63,013 nucleotides of DNA from Verrucomicrobiota bacterium (lineage in GTDB: Bacteria > Verrucomicrobiota > Verrucomicrobiia > Limisphaerales > SIBE01). Made by a program: the position numbers and the translations under genes. The stretch is taken from positions 1-63,013 of the forward strand of contig JACQWK010000316.1 of NCBI GenBank assembly GCA_016209525.1, given 5' to 3'. Shown here one piece after another: positions 27,207 through 40,248 of the stretch (positions are counted from its first letter, which is position 1; each line of letters opens with the position of its first letter). The notes under the pieces are model-generated. The model saw nothing but the letters and a program-made list of their open reading frames with translations. It searched no databases and was not told the DNA's origin.

Positions 27207-29639
27207 ATGTTGAACCGCCCGCTCACGGTCCTGCTTCACTCGATGATGCACCGAATCCTCTCCATGAGCGTCGAGGTGGGGCGAGACTCTTGTCGAGCCC
27301 TGACTTCCTCTCCGGAGTTCGGAACGCCGATCTCCGATCCGGCGAGGTTTGCTGCGCCATGTCATTCACGCCGGGTCGGAGACCGGCGCTCCGTTTTGAG
27401 CCCCTCGAGCCGGTTCTCAAGACGAGGAAGCTATTTCACAATCATCTCTATCCTGGCGCTGCTCCCGCCCGCGCTCAATGCCGAGAGCCCTGCGGTCATT
27501 GAAACGATGACCATCCACGACAGCGGGTACCGCCGCACCTTCGAGATTGCCCGGGACGAACTGGCCGTTTTTTCCTCCAGCGGGACAGCTCAGGTCACGA
27601 CGATCCCTTATTGGCTGCAAGCTGCGGAAATTCATCAAAAAGCGGTACATCTCCAGGAGGCAACCGGAAGCCAAGTCGAGTTGGTCCTCTACGAAAAGGA
27701 TCGCGAGCGCAGCAGTTCGTCGCGCCGCATCCTCACCAGAAAAATTGTGGTCCATGTGGCGCAGGGAAAAAAAATATCGACCATCGCAGAAAGGGTGGGC
27801 GCGGTGTCGGTCGAGGCTCTTGCCTACGCGCCACAACATTTCATCCTCCGGACTGATCGAGCCGGAGAGGCGCTGCGCATGGCCGAAGCTTTGAGGCATA
27901 TCCCCGGCGTGATTTCCGCCGATCCACTCTTGGGTCGTGAATTGCGAAGAAAAGCCGTTCCGAACGACCCGCTTTTCCCCAACCAATGGTTTCTGCTCAA
28001 CCGAGGACAATCCGGCGGTAAGACCGGCTTTGATCTGGGCGTGACGAACGTCTGGGACAGGTACCGCGGCCGAGGCGTCACCATTGCGATTGTGGATGAC
28101 GGGCTTCAGTTGACACACCCGGACTTGGCGCAAAATGTTCAAACGAAGCTTCACTACGACTACCGTGACGGCGACGGCGATCCCAATCCGGCTGGGGCTG
28201 AGGATTTTCATGGAACGGCCGTCGCCGGAATTGCCGCCGCGCGCGGAGACAACTCCGTTGGAGTGGCCGGGATCGCATTCGAGGCGACGCTGGTGGGCCT
28301 CCGGTTAGTCGGAGGCAATGTGCACACCGATGCGATGAGCGCGGCGGCGCTGACGCACAGCAACCAGGTAGTGCAGGTCAGCAACAACAGTTGGGGAGCA
28401 GAAGACACGGGGAAGACGTTGGATGCGCCAGGCCCGCTGATGCAGATGGCGCGAGAAAACGCCGTGCGAAACGGACGGGGGGGCAAAGGGACAGTGTTTG
28501 TCTGGCCCGCGGGCAATGGAGGAGAAGTGCAAGACGACGCCAATTACGATGGCTACGTCAGCTCGAGGCACGTCATTACCGTGGGAGCGGTCACGGACGA
28601 AGGCAGGCGAGCCGCCTACAGCGAGCCGGGGGCTTCTCTGGCTGTTTCCGCGCCCTCGGACATTTCCGCAACTTCCACTCGTCCGGGCATTGTCACGACC
28701 GATCTCGTCGGAGAAGACGGCCTGAATTTCACCGACGCAAGCGGAGACCTTCAGGACATTAACTACACTCAGTATTTCGGAGGCACCTCGGCGGCGGCGG
28801 CGATGGTTTCCGGCGTCGCCGGACTGTTGCTGGAGGCGAACCCAAACCTCGGCTGGCGTGATGTGAAGGAAATCCTGATTCGATCCGCGACGTTGATTGA
28901 TCCCACGGATCCCGACTGGGCGACGAACGGAGCAGGCTTTCGCTTCAACCACCGATACGGCGCAGGGCTGGTCAATGCTTTCGCCGCAGTCAAACTCGCG
29001 ACGAATTGGGTGAATCTCGGACCTCAAACCAGCTTGTCCAAAGCGGCGGCCAATCTTCCTGTCTCGATTCCGGACAATGACTTCCTCGGCACGGCCGTCT
29101 CGTTTGATCTTCGCAAGTCCCCGGCCTTAAGAGTCGAACATGCCGAGGTCACGGTCGCCGTCGCTCATCCCCGTCGCGGCGATTTGGCCATCACTCTCGT
29201 TTCTCCCCATGGGATGCGGAGCCGGCTGGCGGAGCGGCACCCGGATTTCAGTCCGGACTACCCAAATTGGACATTTACCTCGGTCTTCCATTGGGGCGAG
29301 ATGTCACAGGGAGTCTGGAAGGTTCAAGTCGCTGATCTGAACTCTGACAAGGCTGGCACGATCCAATTCGTGCGCCTGGAGCTCTTTGGCACGGAATCTC
29401 CGCGCGAAACAAGGCCATGGCTGAGCGCGTCCCGCCTCGGGGAGACCCAAGTCAGACTTCGGCTGACGGCAGAACCAGGCTACCGGTACGAAATCCAATC
29501 ATCGGCCAATTTTGTTGATTGGATCGGGATTTTAACAACCAACCTTATCACGAACGGGACCGTGGAGCTGGATGAAGATATTGCTGGGAATTTCCAGCCT
29601 CGTTACTTTCGCGCGCTTCGGCAGCCCTCATCACCGTGA
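27207..29639 (+). CDS. Secreted kexin-like subtilase (S8 peptidase with P domain)
   Basis: Up to 810 residues. Catalytic triad: AIVDDGLQLTHPDL (Asp, about residue 296), DFHGTAVAGIAA (His, about 334) and FGGTSAAAAMVSGVAGLL (Ser, about 527). A P/proprotein-convertase domain follows (about 605-735; DLAITLVSPHGMRSRL, GVWKVQVADLNSDKAGT) and the tail ends QPRYFRALRQPSSP. A propeptide-like region lies between about residues 90 and 250. The export signal is GSYFTIISILALLPPALNAE near residues 74-93. The first 60 residues are encoded by a palindromic repeat (27276-27393), so the true start is doubtful. ATG at 27207, directly behind nadB, and TTG at 27396, just before the signal peptide, are both possible. 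Confidence 0.9.
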   Translation: MLNRPLTVLLHSMMHRILSMSVEVGRDSCRALTSSPEFGTPISDPARFAAPCHSRRVGDRRSVLSPSSRFSRRGSYFTIISILALLPPALNAESPAVIETMTIHDSGYRRTFEIARDELAVFSSSGTAQVTTIPYWLQAAEIHQKAVHLQEATGSQVELVLYEKDRERSSSSRRILTRKIVVHVAQGKKISTIAERVGAVSVEALAYAPQHFILRTDRAGEALRMAEALRHIPGVISADPLLGRELRRKAVPNDPLFPNQWFLLNRGQSGGKTGFDLGVTNVWDRYRGRGVTIAIVDDGLQLTHPDLAQNVQTKLHYDYRDGDGDPNPAGAEDFHGTAVAGIAAARGDNSVGVAGIAFEATLVGLRLVGGNVHTDAMSAAALTHSNQVVQVSNNSWGAEDTGKTLDAPGPLMQMARENAVRNGRGGKGTVFVWPAGNGGEVQDDANYDGYVSSRHVITVGAVTDEGRRAAYSEPGASLAVSAPSDISATSTRPGIVTTDLVGEDGLNFTDASGDLQDINYTQYFGGTSAAAAMVSGVAGLLLEANPNLGWRDVKEILIRSATLIDPTDPDWATNGAGFRFNHRYGAGLVNAFAAVKLATNWVNLGPQTSLSKAAANLPVSIPDNDFLGTAVSFDLRKSPALRVEHAEVTVAVAHPRRGDLAITLVSPHGMRSRLAERHPDFSPDYPNWTFTSVFHWGEMSQGVWKVQVADLNSDKAGTIQFVRLELFGTESPRETRPWLSASRLGETQVRLRLTAEPGYRYEIQSSANFVDWIGILTTNLITNGTVELDEDIAGNFQPRYFRALRQPSSP
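27276..27393. repeat. Composite palindromic repeat inside the subtilase 5' region
   Basis: GTGGGGCGAGACTCTTGTCG (shared with 29670-29745) is followed by arms GGAACGCCGATCTCCGATCC and GGGTCGGAGACCGGCGCTCC (shared with 4459-4530). It is read through by the long subtilase frame. Confidence 0.75.
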
Positions 29640-29669
29640 AAGAGGCGCATTTCCCATCAACCACAAAAG

Positions 29670-29745
29670 GTGGGGCGAGACTCCCATCGAGCCCTGGAAT
29701 CGTTGCTGGCAGGAGAGTCAGGGCTCGACACGAGTCTCGCCCCAC
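29670..29745. repeat. Hairpin repeat, GTGGGGCGAGACTC type
   Basis: A clean inverted repeat: GTGGGGCGAGACTCCCATCG plus AGCCCTGGA on the left, CAGGGCTCGACACGAGTCTC plus GCCCCAC on the right. It lies 30 bp after the subtilase stop codon and could serve as its transcript terminus. Confidence 0.85.
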
Positions 29746-29854
29746 CCGTTGGAAGGGATCATGGTCCCGATGCGCACCAGAACCGCCGGGAAGCTTTCCT
29801 TGGCCCAGGCTGTAACAAATCTCGTTCAGGTTCCTCCACTAAACCCCTAATGGA

Positions 29855-29901
29855 AAATCAGGGTGCTCCCCGATTTACACTTTTTCGCTCGTCGCTATAG
29901 T
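29855..29901 (+). promoter_or_regulatory. Promoter of sRNA copy 1, with a dyad overlapping the -35
   Basis: The -35 TTTACA (29874-29879), a 16-bp spacer and the -10 TATAGT (29896-29901) form a good sigma-70-type promoter. A dyad, AAATCAGGG (29855-29863) / CCCCGATTT (29868-29876), with one mismatch, runs into the -35 and is a candidate operator. The same arrangement precedes copy 2. Confidence 0.7.
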
Positions 29902-29908
29902 AGGACTC

Positions 29909-29963
29909 GAAACTTCTCTTCAACGCTGTGGCCCGCTCTTAGGAGGTAGCGGGCGTTTTTTTT
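29909..29963 (+). ncRNA. Putative small RNA, copy 1, about 55 nt with intrinsic terminator
   Basis: Starting at GAAACTTCTC, about 8 bases after the -10, the DNA is nearly identical to 30214-30269. It holds a short 5' segment (AACTTCTCTTCAACGCTGTG), a stem GCCCGCT / AGCGGGC enclosing TTAGGAGGT, and eight T residues (29956-29963), a strong rho-independent terminator. The loop carries a perfect Shine-Dalgarno core, AGGAGG. There is no start codon within it, so a peptide is unlikely. Function unknown. Confidence 0.65.
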
Positions 29964-30036
29964 GTACCGTGCGGAACCTCAACAAGGCACAGACATGTCG
30001 ATGCCGTGCAGGATAGGCGAGCCGGGGGAATGATTT

Positions 30037-30096
30037 GGTGGAGTGTTGGAGTGATGGCGTGTTGAGAAATCCATTACTCCATCACTCCATTGCTCC
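30037..30096. repeat. Hairpin of GGAGTGATGG reiterations
   Basis: GGTGGAGTGTTGGAGTGATGG is answered by CCATTACTCCATCACTCC and CATTGCTCC. It lies between the two small-RNA copies and is a common repeat style elsewhere in this window. Confidence 0.7.
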
Positions 30097-30161
30097 GTTT
30101 CGGATCAGGGATTCGGAATCCGTTACTTTCGGAATCAACCCGTCAACCTGCCCCTCCAAAA

Positions 30162-30207
30162 AAATCAGGGTTCCCCTGATTTACAGATTGCCTTTTGCTG
30201 CTAAATT
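30162..30207 (+). promoter_or_regulatory. Promoter of sRNA copy 2, with a perfect dyad overlapping the -35
   Basis: The -35 TTTACA (30180-30185), a 16-bp spacer and the -10 TAAATT (30202-30207). A perfect 9-bp dyad, AAATCAGGG (30162-30170) / CCCTGATTT (30174-30182), overlaps the -35. The spacer sequence itself is not conserved with copy 1, while the -35, the dyad and the transcript are. Confidence 0.7.
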
Positions 30208-30213
30208 GACGAT

Positions 30214-30269
30214 GAAACTTCTCTTCAACGCTGTGGCCCGCTCCTTAGGAGGTAGCGGGCGTTTTTTTT
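30214..30269 (+). ncRNA. Putative small RNA, copy 2, about 56 nt with intrinsic terminator
   Basis: It starts GAAACTTCTC seven bases after the -10. It matches copy 1 except for one extra C in the loop side (GCTCCTTAGGAGG), which lets CCU pair with AGG and may mask the Shine-Dalgarno-like sequence. The terminator stem GCCCGCT / AGCGGGC is followed by eight T (30262-30269). Function unknown. Confidence 0.65.
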
Positions 30270-30316
30270 GTGCTTAACCGCAGCCGGCATTCGAGCCATC
30301 GATTGAACCGGGAAAG

Positions 30317-30838
30317 TTACCCCTTGCGCCTTTCAAGCTCAGATTGCGCCAATCGGGCTAAGGCTTCGCCAGCAACCCGAAACACGGTCCACTCTTTGAG
30401 GCCAATCGCTCCCAGCTTCTCGTAGAACTCGATGGCGGGCTGGTTCCAATTCAGTGCCGCCCATTCGAAACGCCCGCAGTGCCGTTCTACCGCAATCCTG
30501 GCCAGGTGCAGCATGAGCGCCTGGCCAATGCCCTGCCGGCGAAATGCAGGCTTCACGTAGAGGTCCTCCAAGTAGAGGCCCGATCGGCCTTTGAAGGTGG
30601 AAAAGTTATGGAAGAAAACCGCGAAGGCCACAGATTGTCCATGCAGACAGCCAAAGATTACTTCCGCCGATGCCCGGCTGCCAAACAGGGACTCGCGGAG
30701 GATCGATTCCGTCGCTTCGACTTCGTGCGCGAGTCGCTCAAATTCCGCCAATTCTCGGATAAACGATAGGATCAACGGAAGATCCTCCTCGGTGGCGGTC
30801 CGGATCGTAAGCTCGGTATTTGGCGGTCTGCCTTTCAT
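30317..30838 (-). CDS. GNAT-family N-acetyltransferase (diamine acetyltransferase-like)
   Basis: 173 residues from the ATG at 30838. The GNAT fold is clear: LTIRTATEEDLPLILSFIRELA at the start, GLYLEDLYVKPAFRRQGIGQALM with the acetyl-CoA loop (RRQGIG), and NWNQPAIEFYEKLGAIGLKEW near the end. The LYLEDLYV and FYEKLGA wording is that of the spermidine/spermine acetyltransferase branch, so a polyamine or a related amine is the likely acceptor; this is family inference. The longer frame upstream of 30838 is repeat-derived and was left out. Confidence 0.9.
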   Translation of the reverse strand: MKGRPPNTELTIRTATEEDLPLILSFIRELAEFERLAHEVEATESILRESLFGSRASAEVIFGCLHGQSVAFAVFFHNFSTFKGRSGLYLEDLYVKPAFRRQGIGQALMLHLARIAVERHCGRFEWAALNWNQPAIEFYEKLGAIGLKEWTVFRVAGEALARLAQSELERRKG

Positions 30839-30873
30839 ACTCGCACTCTGAGCGGTGGCTATTTGGATGAGAC

Positions 30874-31044
30874 GGGGAGCGCACGCGCCCTCGCGTGCCG
30901 TGGTCGGCCTGTCTGCCGAACAGGCAGGCGCCTTCGCCAACCAGACGAGCGTGTTCGAACGATTCACCGCTCCGTGACTCATGCACGTGCCCATTCCGAC
31001 CGGCGGGGTGCCGGTCGGAACACGCGAGGGCGCGTGTGCTCCCC
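30874..31044. repeat. Long inverted repeat, GGGGAGCGCACGCGCCCTCG arms
   Basis: Left arm GGGGAGCGCACGCGCCCTCG plus CGTG and right arm CACGCGAGGGCGCGTGTGCT plus CCCC, with inner CATTCCGACCGGC / GCCGGTCGGAAC arms. A partial relative is at about 36511-36544. Confidence 0.8.
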
Positions 31045-31108: not shown

Positions 31109-32146
31109 TCATTTCGCCAGCCGCTTCTTTAAGGCGAGGATGGCCTTCACCAGCGGTTCAGGCCCGTGCCGCAAAACGTCGCACACCGGCACGCCAAGCT
31201 CCGCGTTGACCTTCTCGCACTCGCTCCGGACGTCTTCGTCGGAGAATTTGCGGCCATTGACCGCGATTCCAATGACCTGGCAAGGGTGCATAAGATTGGC
31301 CATCGTTTCGTAAACTTGCTTCAGAACGGCGAGCGAAGGGAGTTTGAACTGGTTCATTCCACCCACACCCTCACGCCCCATCTCGTAACAGAGAATCAAA
31401 CCGTCCGGCACGCAACCGTGAAGCAACCCCAGCGTGACGCCGGAATATCTCGGATGCACCAGGCTCCCTTGGCCTTCAATGAGGAGAATCTGGTGATGCT
31501 GGTTTGCTAACACGAGTTTCTCGGCGGCGCCATTGACGAAGTCACCGACCACGGCGTCGATCGGACAACCATCGCCTTCGATCATGATGCCGGTTTGGCC
31601 GGTGGCGACGAACTTTGCGTCGTAGCCCGCCTGCTTCAAAGCCAGGCTCAGCTCAAGGCTCACGACCATTTTGCCGACGTTGCAGTCGTGGCCCACCGTG
31701 TGAATGCGCAGGCACTCCTCCCGGAGTCCCTTCCGATGCGCGACGTCGCGTTCCTCGTTCTTTCGAACATCGACCAGCCTGGCTCCCTGCACTCGGGCCG
31801 CGGCGGCGATTTCCGGGTCGTCGGAGAGGAACTCGTGCAACCCCGACACAACGGTCATTTTGCGCCCGATGGCCTCCAAAACAGTTTCCTTCATGGCGGG
31901 CGGCAGTTTTCCTCCCGTCGGAGCCAGGCCAATGACCACGGTGTTGGCTTCAGGCACCTCACGTAACTCGCGGATGACCGGGATGTTCCCGCCCAGTCCG
32001 AACAAATCTTGGCTGGTCATTCCGGCGTGGATTTCGTCAAGAATCGCCACGACCTCCTCCGGCTTGTAGCGAAGTAAATTGACGGCAGTCTTGGCCGGGC
32101 CGGGATTCGAAACCCCGCCGGTGAGAAGGACCATTTTTCGTGTCAT
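31109..32146 (-). CDS. DUF1611 family P-loop protein (DgcN-like)
   Basis: 345 residues. An N-terminal Rossmann-like domain (KMVLLTGGVSNPGPAKTA, VIGLAPTGGKLP) and a C-terminal P-loop NTPase-like domain with VGHDCNVGKMVVSLEL as the variant Walker A, then VATGQTGIMIEGDGCPIDAVVGDFVNGAAE and LLIEGQGSLVHPRYSGVTLGLLHG. The family includes DgcN, a D-glutamate N-acetyltransferase of D-amino-acid breakdown that usually has an epimerase partner (DgcA); none is visible here. It is divergently arranged with an amino-acid permease gene 82 bp away, which supports a role in amino-acid use. Confidence 0.88.
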   Translation of the reverse strand: MTRKMVLLTGGVSNPGPAKTAVNLLRYKPEEVVAILDEIHAGMTSQDLFGLGGNIPVIRELREVPEANTVVIGLAPTGGKLPPAMKETVLEAIGRKMTVVSGLHEFLSDDPEIAAAARVQGARLVDVRKNEERDVAHRKGLREECLRIHTVGHDCNVGKMVVSLELSLALKQAGYDAKFVATGQTGIMIEGDGCPIDAVVGDFVNGAAEKLVLANQHHQILLIEGQGSLVHPRYSGVTLGLLHGCVPDGLILCYEMGREGVGGMNQFKLPSLAVLKQVYETMANLMHPCQVIGIAVNGRKFSDEDVRSECEKVNAELGVPVCDVLRHGPEPLVKAILALKKRLAK

Positions 32147-38505: not shown

Positions 38506-40163
38506 TCTGGAAACACGATTTGAACGAAAAGGGATTCAAGATCGCGGTCGTCGTCGAAGAATTGATCGTAGCCGGGGTTTCGCTCTGCACGGTTGATCTG
38601 GCTCAGGCTCTCGCCAAGATCGGGTACGACGTGACGTTGTTCGTCTTGAGAAAGCCGGATTACGAGGTGAGCCGCCAAGAGAGACTGTCGGTTGTGTCTT
38701 TCGACACGCCCGTTCCACTAGTTCAACTTTCCAAGCTGCTGGCCGATTTCGACGCCATCATTGTGAGCAACGGCGTCGCGTTGCCCTTCGGCTTTGAAGC
38801 CGCCAGGCACACCGCCAAGGCCCTCATCGTGGAATGGCTCCATGGCGAAGTCCGAGCGCGCCAATGTCCCGCGGTCGATTTCACGGTGGCCGTTTCTGAG
38901 CCGATCTTCAGAAATATGCAGGCCGCGGAACATGACCTCTTCATTCCCAACGGGGTCAATCTTTCGAAATTTTATCCCGCCCAGCGGCAGAGCCGTCCTC
39001 GCGTCCGGCTGATTCAAATCGCACGAGAATGGAAGACGATGGGCCCCGATCTGGGTGAGCTTGGACCGGAGCTTGTCCGCGAAGGATTGCCGGTCGAAGC
39101 CCACATCGTCGGCAGAAATGGTCCTTCATCAGAGCACGTGACTTTTCACGGCGTCCGCTCGGACGTTGCGCCGGTCCTCCGAGAGGCCGACATCCTTCTT
39201 CACCTGCCGGAGATGGAGACGTTCGGATTGCCGGCGATTGAAGCCATGGCCAGCGGCGTCATCCCTATCGTGTCGAATGTGGGTGGCCTGCCCAGTTCCG
39301 TGGTTCATGGGGTCACTGGATACGTGGTCGGCTTTGGCGAGAAGTTGGCGGTGCGGCAGCTCATCACCGAGCTCGTCCGAAAGATCAACGAGAATCATCC
39401 GGACATTGGCCGCATAAAAGCGAACGGGCTCCGAAGGGTCAGGCAGCACTTCGACATCATCGGAACCGCTCGCCGGATTGGGCAGCGCATTCAGGAATTG
39501 GCGCTGCGCCTCCCCAGAAAACATCGCTCGACCGCCTATCCGTTTTCATTCATCGGACCGGTTCTCTACTACATTCTGGGCCGAGAGGATCAATATCTGA
39601 CGGCAATGTCCGACATGCTCAACGCGCCGGATCTCACTGAAGCGCTGGGGAACTGGAAAATCTTCCGCAGCGCCCTTGGCCACGAGTGGAAGGATGTCTC
39701 GCCAAATACTTGGAAGTTGCTGGACGCCGTGTATGCAACGGTGACGAAGGACGCTTCCGAGGCTGCCTTCCAACGAAAGGCTGTCTGTTCCTTTTGGCTT
39801 TCCTTCTTGGCGCTGGTGCTCGAGCGTTATGAGTTGCTCTGCGACTTCCTCTGCGCCGGCGACGCTCGAAAAGAAGCCCTCGGAGGCGCGCTGCCCCGGC
39901 GCGCACTGGCAACAATCAGCTTCAGCCTGGCCGTTTCTCTTCTGGACGTTCTCGGCGTGGAGATCGACTCCAAGCTTCTCGAAGCCAAGGAGCATATCCA
40001 AAAATGCTATTACTTGAACGAATTCGACCGCATCGCGGCTTGGGAACTCGGCGAGGATTTGCTCGAAAACGTTTTTCGCGCAGCCAATCATCCGGAGTTG
40101 CTTCGGTCACTCAGGGCCATGGAGGCAAACAGAGCTCAGCCGCGGAGCCGCGGCAGAGCATAG
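38493..40163 (+). CDS. Glycosyltransferase family 4-type protein with an extra C-terminal domain
   Basis: 556 residues by the ATG at 38493, but that ATG is part of a repeat arm; the TTG at 38520 (NEKGFKIAVVVEEL) is a likely alternative. A GT-B fold: the N-domain IAVVVEELIVAGVSLCTVDLA replaces the usual glycine-rich loop, and the C-domain has the donor-binding EMETFGLPAIEAMASGVIPIVSN (E-x7-E) plus GVTGYVV. After about residue 340 there is an additional helical region of about 200 residues (YYILGREDQYLTAMSDML onward) that I do not recognise. It transfers an unknown sugar, probably for surface polysaccharide. It stands alone, with no other polymer genes beside it. Confidence 0.88.
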   Translation: MPALLWKHDLNEKGFKIAVVVEELIVAGVSLCTVDLAQALAKIGYDVTLFVLRKPDYEVSRQERLSVVSFDTPVPLVQLSKLLADFDAIIVSNGVALPFGFEAARHTAKALIVEWLHGEVRARQCPAVDFTVAVSEPIFRNMQAAEHDLFIPNGVNLSKFYPAQRQSRPRVRLIQIAREWKTMGPDLGELGPELVREGLPVEAHIVGRNGPSSEHVTFHGVRSDVAPVLREADILLHLPEMETFGLPAIEAMASGVIPIVSNVGGLPSSVVHGVTGYVVGFGEKLAVRQLITELVRKINENHPDIGRIKANGLRRVRQHFDIIGTARRIGQRIQELALRLPRKHRSTAYPFSFIGPVLYYILGREDQYLTAMSDMLNAPDLTEALGNWKIFRSALGHEWKDVSPNTWKLLDAVYATVTKDASEAAFQRKAVCSFWLSFLALVLERYELLCDFLCAGDARKEALGGALPRRALATISFSLAVSLLDVLGVEIDSKLLEAKEHIQKCYYLNEFDRIAAWELGEDLLENVFRAANHPELLRSLRAMEANRAQPRSRGRA

Positions 40164-40248
40164 CCCACGGCGTGAGCTGTGGGATCGCCATGTCCCCACG
40201 TTCGACAGCCCCGGACGGAGCGACAGAAGTTCGACAGTCGGCAGACTT

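Follow-up and report, generated by a model that had tools for sequence, protein, structure and literature searches.

The window (the whole stretch of 63,013 nucleotides analysed here) contains two neighbouring units that belong to a multicopy family restricted, convincingly, to the window's own family within its order (8/8 genomes of the family vs 0/312 others). We consider that these units are probably the genes of a short small-RNA family, which occupies five places in its own genome and is likely to act in trans by base pairing. This reading is preferred because the unit resembles sibling small RNAs: it is short, multicopy and non-coding, and it combines promoter-like sites and a terminator-like hairpin with a constant core that is mostly exposed.

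The tandem units in the window

The unit at positions 29854-29965 recurs at 30159-30271, at a spacing of 305-306 bases, as a succession of dyad, promoter-like hexamers, about 55 near-identical bases and terminator-like hairpin. Both copies carry promoter-like hexamers, the conserved core ACGCUGUG, a T-run and a GC-rich hairpin whose loop contains GGAGG. The features of the region are listed below, where G000 denotes the own genome (10.1 Mb) and G001-G007 the other genomes of the window's family, two of the eight being 60-67% complete.

27207..29639, forward strand: subtilase gene (Peptidase_S8 + P_proprotein, Pfam), the upstream flank; a similar protein stands beside the RNA genes of both other members of the genus
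29857..29874, forward strand: copy 1, imperfect dyad ATCAGGG-TGCT-CCCCGAT, a predicted regulator site centred about 43 nt before the presumed +1 (pattern match; orthologous positions conserved in the alignment)
29874..29901, forward strand: copy 1, predicted promoter-like hexamers TTTACA-16-TATAGT (10/12 in the consensus scan)
29909..29963, forward strand: copy 1, predicted small RNA, GAAACTTCTCTTC...T8, about 55 nt with presumed ends (100% repeat; covariance-model match at 29913-29961, 75.1 bits)
29923..29928, forward strand: copy 1, ACGCTG, invariant in 19/19 intact members and predicted to be unpaired at 0.92 (partition function)
29931..29954, forward strand: copy 1, terminator-like hairpin GCCCGCT/AGCGGGC with loop GGAGG at 29942-29946, followed by T8 at 29956-29963
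30164..30180, forward strand: copy 2, perfect dyad ATCAGGG-TTC-CCCTGAT, centred 42 nt before the presumed +1 (pattern match)
30180..30207, forward strand: copy 2, predicted promoter-like hexamers TTTACA-16-TAAATT, with TG before the second hexamer (9/12 in the consensus scan)
30214..30269, forward strand: copy 2, predicted small RNA, about 56 nt with presumed ends (repeat; covariance-model match at 30218-30267, 78 bits)
30228..30233, forward strand: copy 2, ACGCTG, invariant and predicted to be unpaired at 0.94 (partition function)
30236..30260, forward strand: copy 2, terminator-like hairpin with loop GGAGG at 30248-30252, followed by T8 at 30262-30269
30317-30994: GNAT gene, between copy 2 and the DUF1611 gene
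31109..32146, reverse strand: DUF1611 gene (Pfam), the second gene downstream in the window; also near an RNA gene in G001, G002 and G003

A repeat search in the window found 29909-29938 to be identical to 30214-30243 (direct repeat, 30 nt, 100%) and 29938-29965 to 30244-30271 (28 nt, 100%), while 29854-29869 and 30161-30176 agree at 88%. From the presumed +1 through the T-run the sole difference between the copies is one extra C in copy 2. With copy 2 as query, copy 1 was recovered at E 1e-22 and related genes in other genomes were recovered as well; the repeat relation of the two copies is far beyond chance. The initial annotation, which had described a tandem pair with shared architecture, the extra C of copy 2 and, in each copy, a GCCCGCT/AGCGGGC stem with eight T, is borne out on all three points. 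Two further repeats lie nearby, namely an inverted repeat of 33 nt (85% complementary, 29664-29751) directly behind the subtilase gene and another of 21 nt (81% complementary, 30040-30096) between the two RNA copies.

The same annotation had called the unit an apparently undescribed small RNA, and this too is supported. Among the 4227 families of Rfam 15 none reached its gathering score at either copy, and the literature, among the matches listed, held no description of a Verrucomicrobia RNA like the window units. The sole Rfam match of the window is an Acido-Lenti-1 RNA (RF01687) at 40138-40183 on the reverse strand, which scores 41.3 bits where the gathering score is 37. A peptide reading was considered for the copy 2 frame MKLLFNAVARSLGGSGRFFCA and rejected: copy 1 lacks the ATG of copy 2 and is shifted in frame by the one-base difference, and the units are for this reason taken to be non-coding.

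Distribution, locus groups and conservation

A covariance model (R1), built from 13 sequences and run on 320 genomes of the order, matched 10/320 genomes, comprising all eight of the window's family and 2/312 others. The two matches outside it (L024 and L025, about 30 bits) are taken as chance, being, as judged by eye, a coding-frame stretch and a plain terminator in which neither ACGCTG nor GGAGG occurs. A fuller model (R2), run on the window only, gave nothing beyond the two copies, the next score being 16.4 bits. The 113-nt copy 2 query found four places in the own genome, itself included, and matches in 5/58 genomes, again including the own genome and all of the same family. A strict pattern searched over 84,980 species (one genome each) returned 10 stretches, each of them from a MAG with Verrucomicrobia, Pedosphaera or Akkermansia in its title; nine are attributed to contigs of G001, G003, G004, G005 and G007 already matched, and the tenth, L050, from the accession series of the G005 contig, is a second G005 gene. 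In viral contigs the strict pattern had no match.

The gene total is 20, of which 19 are intact: five in G000, four in G001, three in G002 (one of them split), three in G003, two in G005 and one each in G004, G006 and G007. Several highly similar stand-alone copies per genome, as in sibling small RNAs, are therefore found here, with five in G000, and copies that are not part of a tandem pair are each on a separate contig. The two tandem copies initially described turn out to be part of a dispersed family, the genes of which were sorted by their flanks and sequence into seven locus groups.

Group I comprises the window pair and its orthologues. It lies between the subtilase gene and the DUF1611 gene in G000, G001 and G002, and adjoins DUF1611 in G003 (the window genes being identified by Pfam, the flanking proteins of the relatives, in L005, L006, L007 and L015, by eye); the context in G002 spans two contigs, the joining of which we infer. 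The G002 gene appears to be cut within its loop by an insertion, with a 5-bp duplication CTTAG and inverted ends of about 30 bases, and L015, as its presumed right half, is counted with L006 as one gene on the strength of the same joining of contig ends. The inserted DNA, apparently a mobile element, is seen as two contig ends (L006 1501-1755 and L015 1-173). The tandem pair is present in G001 as well. Between G000 and G001 the dyads agree copy by copy, with TGC(T/G)CCCCGAT in the first copy of either genome and TT(C/T)CCC in the second, so that the tandem arrangement likely predates the G000/G001 split.

Groups II (G001, G002), III (five genomes), IV (G003, G005) and V (G003, G005, G007) each have a conserved upstream sequence of their own, which in groups II and V extends over long stretches, while groups VI and VII are single genes. 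When the five group III RNAs were folded from the presumed +1 region, a predicted 5' stem absorbed the pyrimidine UUUCGUUUC stretch and left CACGCUG free before the terminator; in this group a change of both partners was seen in 0/26 pairs, and when the 5' end was extended, some of the core paired with that end in 3/3 RNAs folded so. In group III (L004, L013, L014, L021) a conserved palindrome-like AGGAA-CCTTCCT also stands directly behind a -10-like TATAAG/TATAGG, where it may serve as an operator or form the RNA's first hairpin.

The conservation profile of group I was taken from an alignment of six rows, with the G002 row truncated, as mean pairwise identity. The 5' part of the RNA stands at 0.97 and the hairpin at 0.80, lowered by the split row; the dyad (0.71), the -35 region (0.70) and the -10 (0.76) follow, and the spacer (0.44), the segment from -10 to start (0.30) and the sequence further upstream (0.39 and 0.22) are far more variable. 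The original observation that spacers drift while the dyad and the transcribed part stay is thus confirmed, and such a pattern would be that of selection on a transcript, for which reason we count it towards the small-RNA reading.

The same profile bears on the possibility that the units are a dispersed terminator or DNA repeat, copied around the genome and without function as RNA. The nearly invariant stem sequence between loci, a T-run that is weak in 3/19 members and the splitting of the G002 copy by a mobile element would all agree with such an element, which we nevertheless hold to be unlikely: the orthologues keep the dyad, the -10 and the 5' part while the spacers drift (rather than a terminator alone behind unrelated genes, the outcome named beforehand as refuting), groups II and V retain their long upstream stretches, the same neighbouring genes recur across genomes, the non-tandem copies sit on separate contigs and none of the viral contigs was matched.

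The control region had been described as an operator-like dyad followed by a conserved -35 TTTACA, a 16-bp spacer and a -10, and this description holds in part. A dyad is present in both copies and is perfect only in copy 2, the form in copy 1 being ATCAGGG-TGCT-CCCCGAT. The hexamers and the 16-bp spacer are likewise present in both, the consensus scan finding two promoter-like pairs against 0.4 expected in shuffles. The -10 is conserved among the orthologues, whereas the -35 is not: TTTACA is confined to the window copies and is replaced by TAGCCA in three rows and by TAGGCA in one. The dyad itself is conserved; centred at about -42, beside a -35 that is poor in the relatives, it would fit an activator site better than an operator. 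Its conservation at homologous loci extends to the group I orthologues and stops there, only one locus group carrying the dyad.

Within the 10.1 Mb of the own genome the strict form of the dyad is matched at the two window copies and nowhere else (a control pattern had 1 match), and across the family it is matched at eight places in 5/8 genomes (a reversed control had 1 match). Three of these eight are at family RNA genes, two in G000 and one in G001, and five are elsewhere, three in G004 and one each in G006 and G003. The dyad as a genome-wide operator was considered and discarded; the strict form is matched by 3/6 group I rows and missed by the other three.

The invariant core, the hairpin loop and the ribosome

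Outside the hairpin the most constant element is ACGCUG, which stands just before it in 19/19 intact members, and not GAAACUUCUC. The hairpin loop carries GGAGG in 17/19 members, the two exceptions having GGAGC and GGGGG, and its length varies by single bases in the alignment of intact members. Behind the stem at least six T are found among 10 bases in 16/19, the T-run being weak in G003_I, G007_V and G005_V. The stem is paired in 99.2% of cells; 5/7 of its pairs never vary, and both partners have changed in a single pair (U-A to C-G, three sequences), a count that 268/500 shuffles reach, so that covariation support is thin. The predicted folds of the two window copies are little more stable than those of shuffled sequences (z -0.29 and -1.51), and a terminator scan limited to loops of 3-8 reported neither hairpin, their loops being too long, and had its sole regional match at 30097-30119. 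For these two reasons the small-RNA case rests on conservation and not on fold energy.

With RNA ends assumed, the partition function gave mean predicted unpaired probabilities over the 19 members of 0.75 (ACGCUG) and 0.69 (loop motif). Exposure of ACGCUG is low (0.32-0.40) in 4/19 members. The loop motif is unpaired at 0.76 or more in 10/19 and at 0.43-0.51 in 6/19, the latter including the window copies, in which GGAGG is about half unpaired (0.51 in copy 1, 0.43 in copy 2). The AGGAGG placed in the loop by the initial annotation is therefore there as sequence, while a fully open loop is not predicted, AGGAGG being partly paired in the fold.

A loop with a Shine-Dalgarno (SD) core raises the question of SD use in the lineage, which was approached with ORFs of at least 150 aa from the window and from 14 loci that were treated as relatives (L045-L058, L045 being a stretch of the own genome), the choice of starts being crude. 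Strong SD words precede 4/35 start candidates vs 2/31 internal ATGs in the window, and 4/79 vs 5/72 in the relatives; the same test applied to 50 kb of E. coli gave 12/38 vs 0/38. Looser SD 4-mers gave 6/35 vs 5/31 in the window, 8/79 vs 2/72 in the relatives and 17/38 vs 2/38 in E. coli. SD use in the lineage thus seems low, although not proven to be nil. The 16S rRNA was not found in the own genome; complete 16S sequences came from G002, G003 and two genomes of the order, and those of G002 and G003 end in the canonical GGATCACCTCCTTTCT, with the anti-SD CCUCC kept. Some Verrucomicrobia are described as SD-scarce with a conserved CCUCC (PMC10783764), and the anti-SD is reported to matter much less in Flavobacterium than in E. 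coli (PMC8710568).

Against this background the loop could, in principle, be a decoy, GGAGG binding the 16S anti-SD in the 30S subunit and thereby modulating initiation, assembly or hibernation. The near-constancy of the motif, the two exceptions to which would still pair with CCUCC partly or by G-U, its exposure in 10/19 members and the retention of CCUCC in G002 and G003, in a lineage whose mRNAs seem hardly to use SD sites, all point in this direction, as does the precedent of SD-scarce Verrucomicrobia cited above. Against it stand the half-paired motif of 6/19 members, the slight enrichment of looser SD 4-mers in the relatives and the invariant ACGCUG, which it does not explain, the complement CAGCGT being absent from the two 16S loci examined. 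We accordingly give this reading a low probability, and an equally low one to its extended form, a decoy-RNA family whose loops would dock on the 30S anti-SD and whose invariant ACGCUG would supply another contact, to an RNA or to the ribosome. The decoy reading gains in interest because the lineage looks SD-scarce with the anti-SD kept in two relatives: if true, the family would regulate the ribosome directly by RNA instead of acting on individual mRNAs, and decoy RNAs would be one reason for the retention of CCUCC in SD-scarce bacteria.

A different use of the loop would be the titration of CsrA by its GGA. CsrB-type RNAs present many GGA motifs in hairpin loops. CsrA is encoded in 6/8 family genomes, being absent only in the two least complete, and the hairpin loop of 18/19 members contains GGA; the RNAs, however, hold one to three GGA each, unlike CsrB-type RNAs, and G006 has lost the loop GGA altogether. 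Moreover, CsrA occurs in 130/313 genomes of the order, far more widely than the RNA, and csrA stands between fliW and flagellin genes (named by eye) in those three of the four stretches examined which extend to both sides of it, a position from which FliW would be the likelier CsrA antagonist. With both the flagellar cluster context and the order-wide spread of CsrA opposed to it, the CsrA link was rejected as a candidate, and a CsrA sponge appears very unlikely. In the G000, G003 and G005 stretches among L045-L048, csrA adjoins genes that were taken by eye for fliW and a pair of flagellins; L047 (G002) ends just behind csrA.

Even less probable, and in our estimation highly unlikely, is a sponge for another small RNA, in which the G-rich loop would capture a C/U-rich small RNA. 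There is a precedent in Firmicutes, where RosA and RsaI bind C-rich small RNAs via G-rich regions (PMC8216469), but the invariant ACGCUG would again be left unexplained.

Proposed action and comparison with known small RNAs

Returning to the sibling small-RNA reading, we envisage that a regulator bound at about -42 would switch on the copies of the dyad group, and that RNA polymerase would halt at the hairpin, yielding RNAs of about 55 nt in this group or of about 95-100 nt in the group whose RNAs have an additional 5' stem. Pairing with target RNAs would begin at the exposed ACGCUG, the likely seed, and the GGAGG loop would be a likely second contact, made to C/U-rich RNA. A common set of targets may thereby be altered in translation or stability, with neither Hfq nor ProQ involved, and the different upstream sequences of the copies could allow different signals to drive the same RNA core. 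The masking of an SD site is probably not the mode of action, because mRNAs here seem rarely to carry such sites.

Neither chaperone was detected in the eight family genomes, two of which are 60-67% complete: Hfq was found in 0/8 (its control being positive in 5/14) and ProQ in 0/8 (control positive in 1/14). As to targets, the 19-nt complement with up to three mismatches matched 30 places in the eight genomes, ten of which are genes of the RNA family; a reversed-pattern control gave 16 places as against the remaining 20, and on inspection none of these 20 was a convincing start region. Long antisense targets were consequently set aside, with 20 places vs 16 in the control and none at a clear start site.

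Few small RNAs have been catalogued for the PVC group, one table giving 8 (PMC9029176). A lineage-wide multicopy family with an invariant core is thus a defined object for the study of RNA regulation in Verrucomicrobia lacking detected Hfq or ProQ, and a kept SD core in a low-SD lineage makes the question of CCUCC retention testable with one short RNA.

Among described systems, the csRNAs of the CiaR regulon in Streptococcus likewise form several similar stand-alone copies per genome, two of those in S. pneumoniae being in tandem and the others distal (PMC4211561); they belong to another phylum and share one known regulator, whereas here the dyad is found in one locus group only. PrrF1 and PrrF2 of Pseudomonas aeruginosa are tandem siblings that were found by a regulator site together with a terminator and are in tandem in part of the lineage (PMC4211561). 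PrrF is Fur-controlled and iron-related, while the window RNAs have only a predicted regulator site. In the multicopy LhrC1-5 of Listeria the terminator loop and, more weakly, a single-stranded stretch can contact the target (PMC4132741), but the LhrC sites are CU-rich and block an SD, whereas here the loop is the SD-like side and the mRNAs seem rarely to bear SD sites. RosA and RsaI of Firmicutes offer the example of a stand-alone small RNA with G-rich contact regions (PMC8216469); RosA differs in having two such regions, with RoxS and FsrA as partners, in place of several short copies with one GGAGG loop. The CsrB/RsmZ-type RNAs share the loop GGA and the presence of CsrA in the lineage, and are set apart by the one to three GGA of the window RNAs and by the far wider occurrence of CsrA. 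By analogy, the csRNAs, PrrF, LhrC and RosA/RsaI would be nearest in working style, and the window RNAs, matched by no family described in Rfam, are likely to represent a new family of the sibling-small-RNA type.
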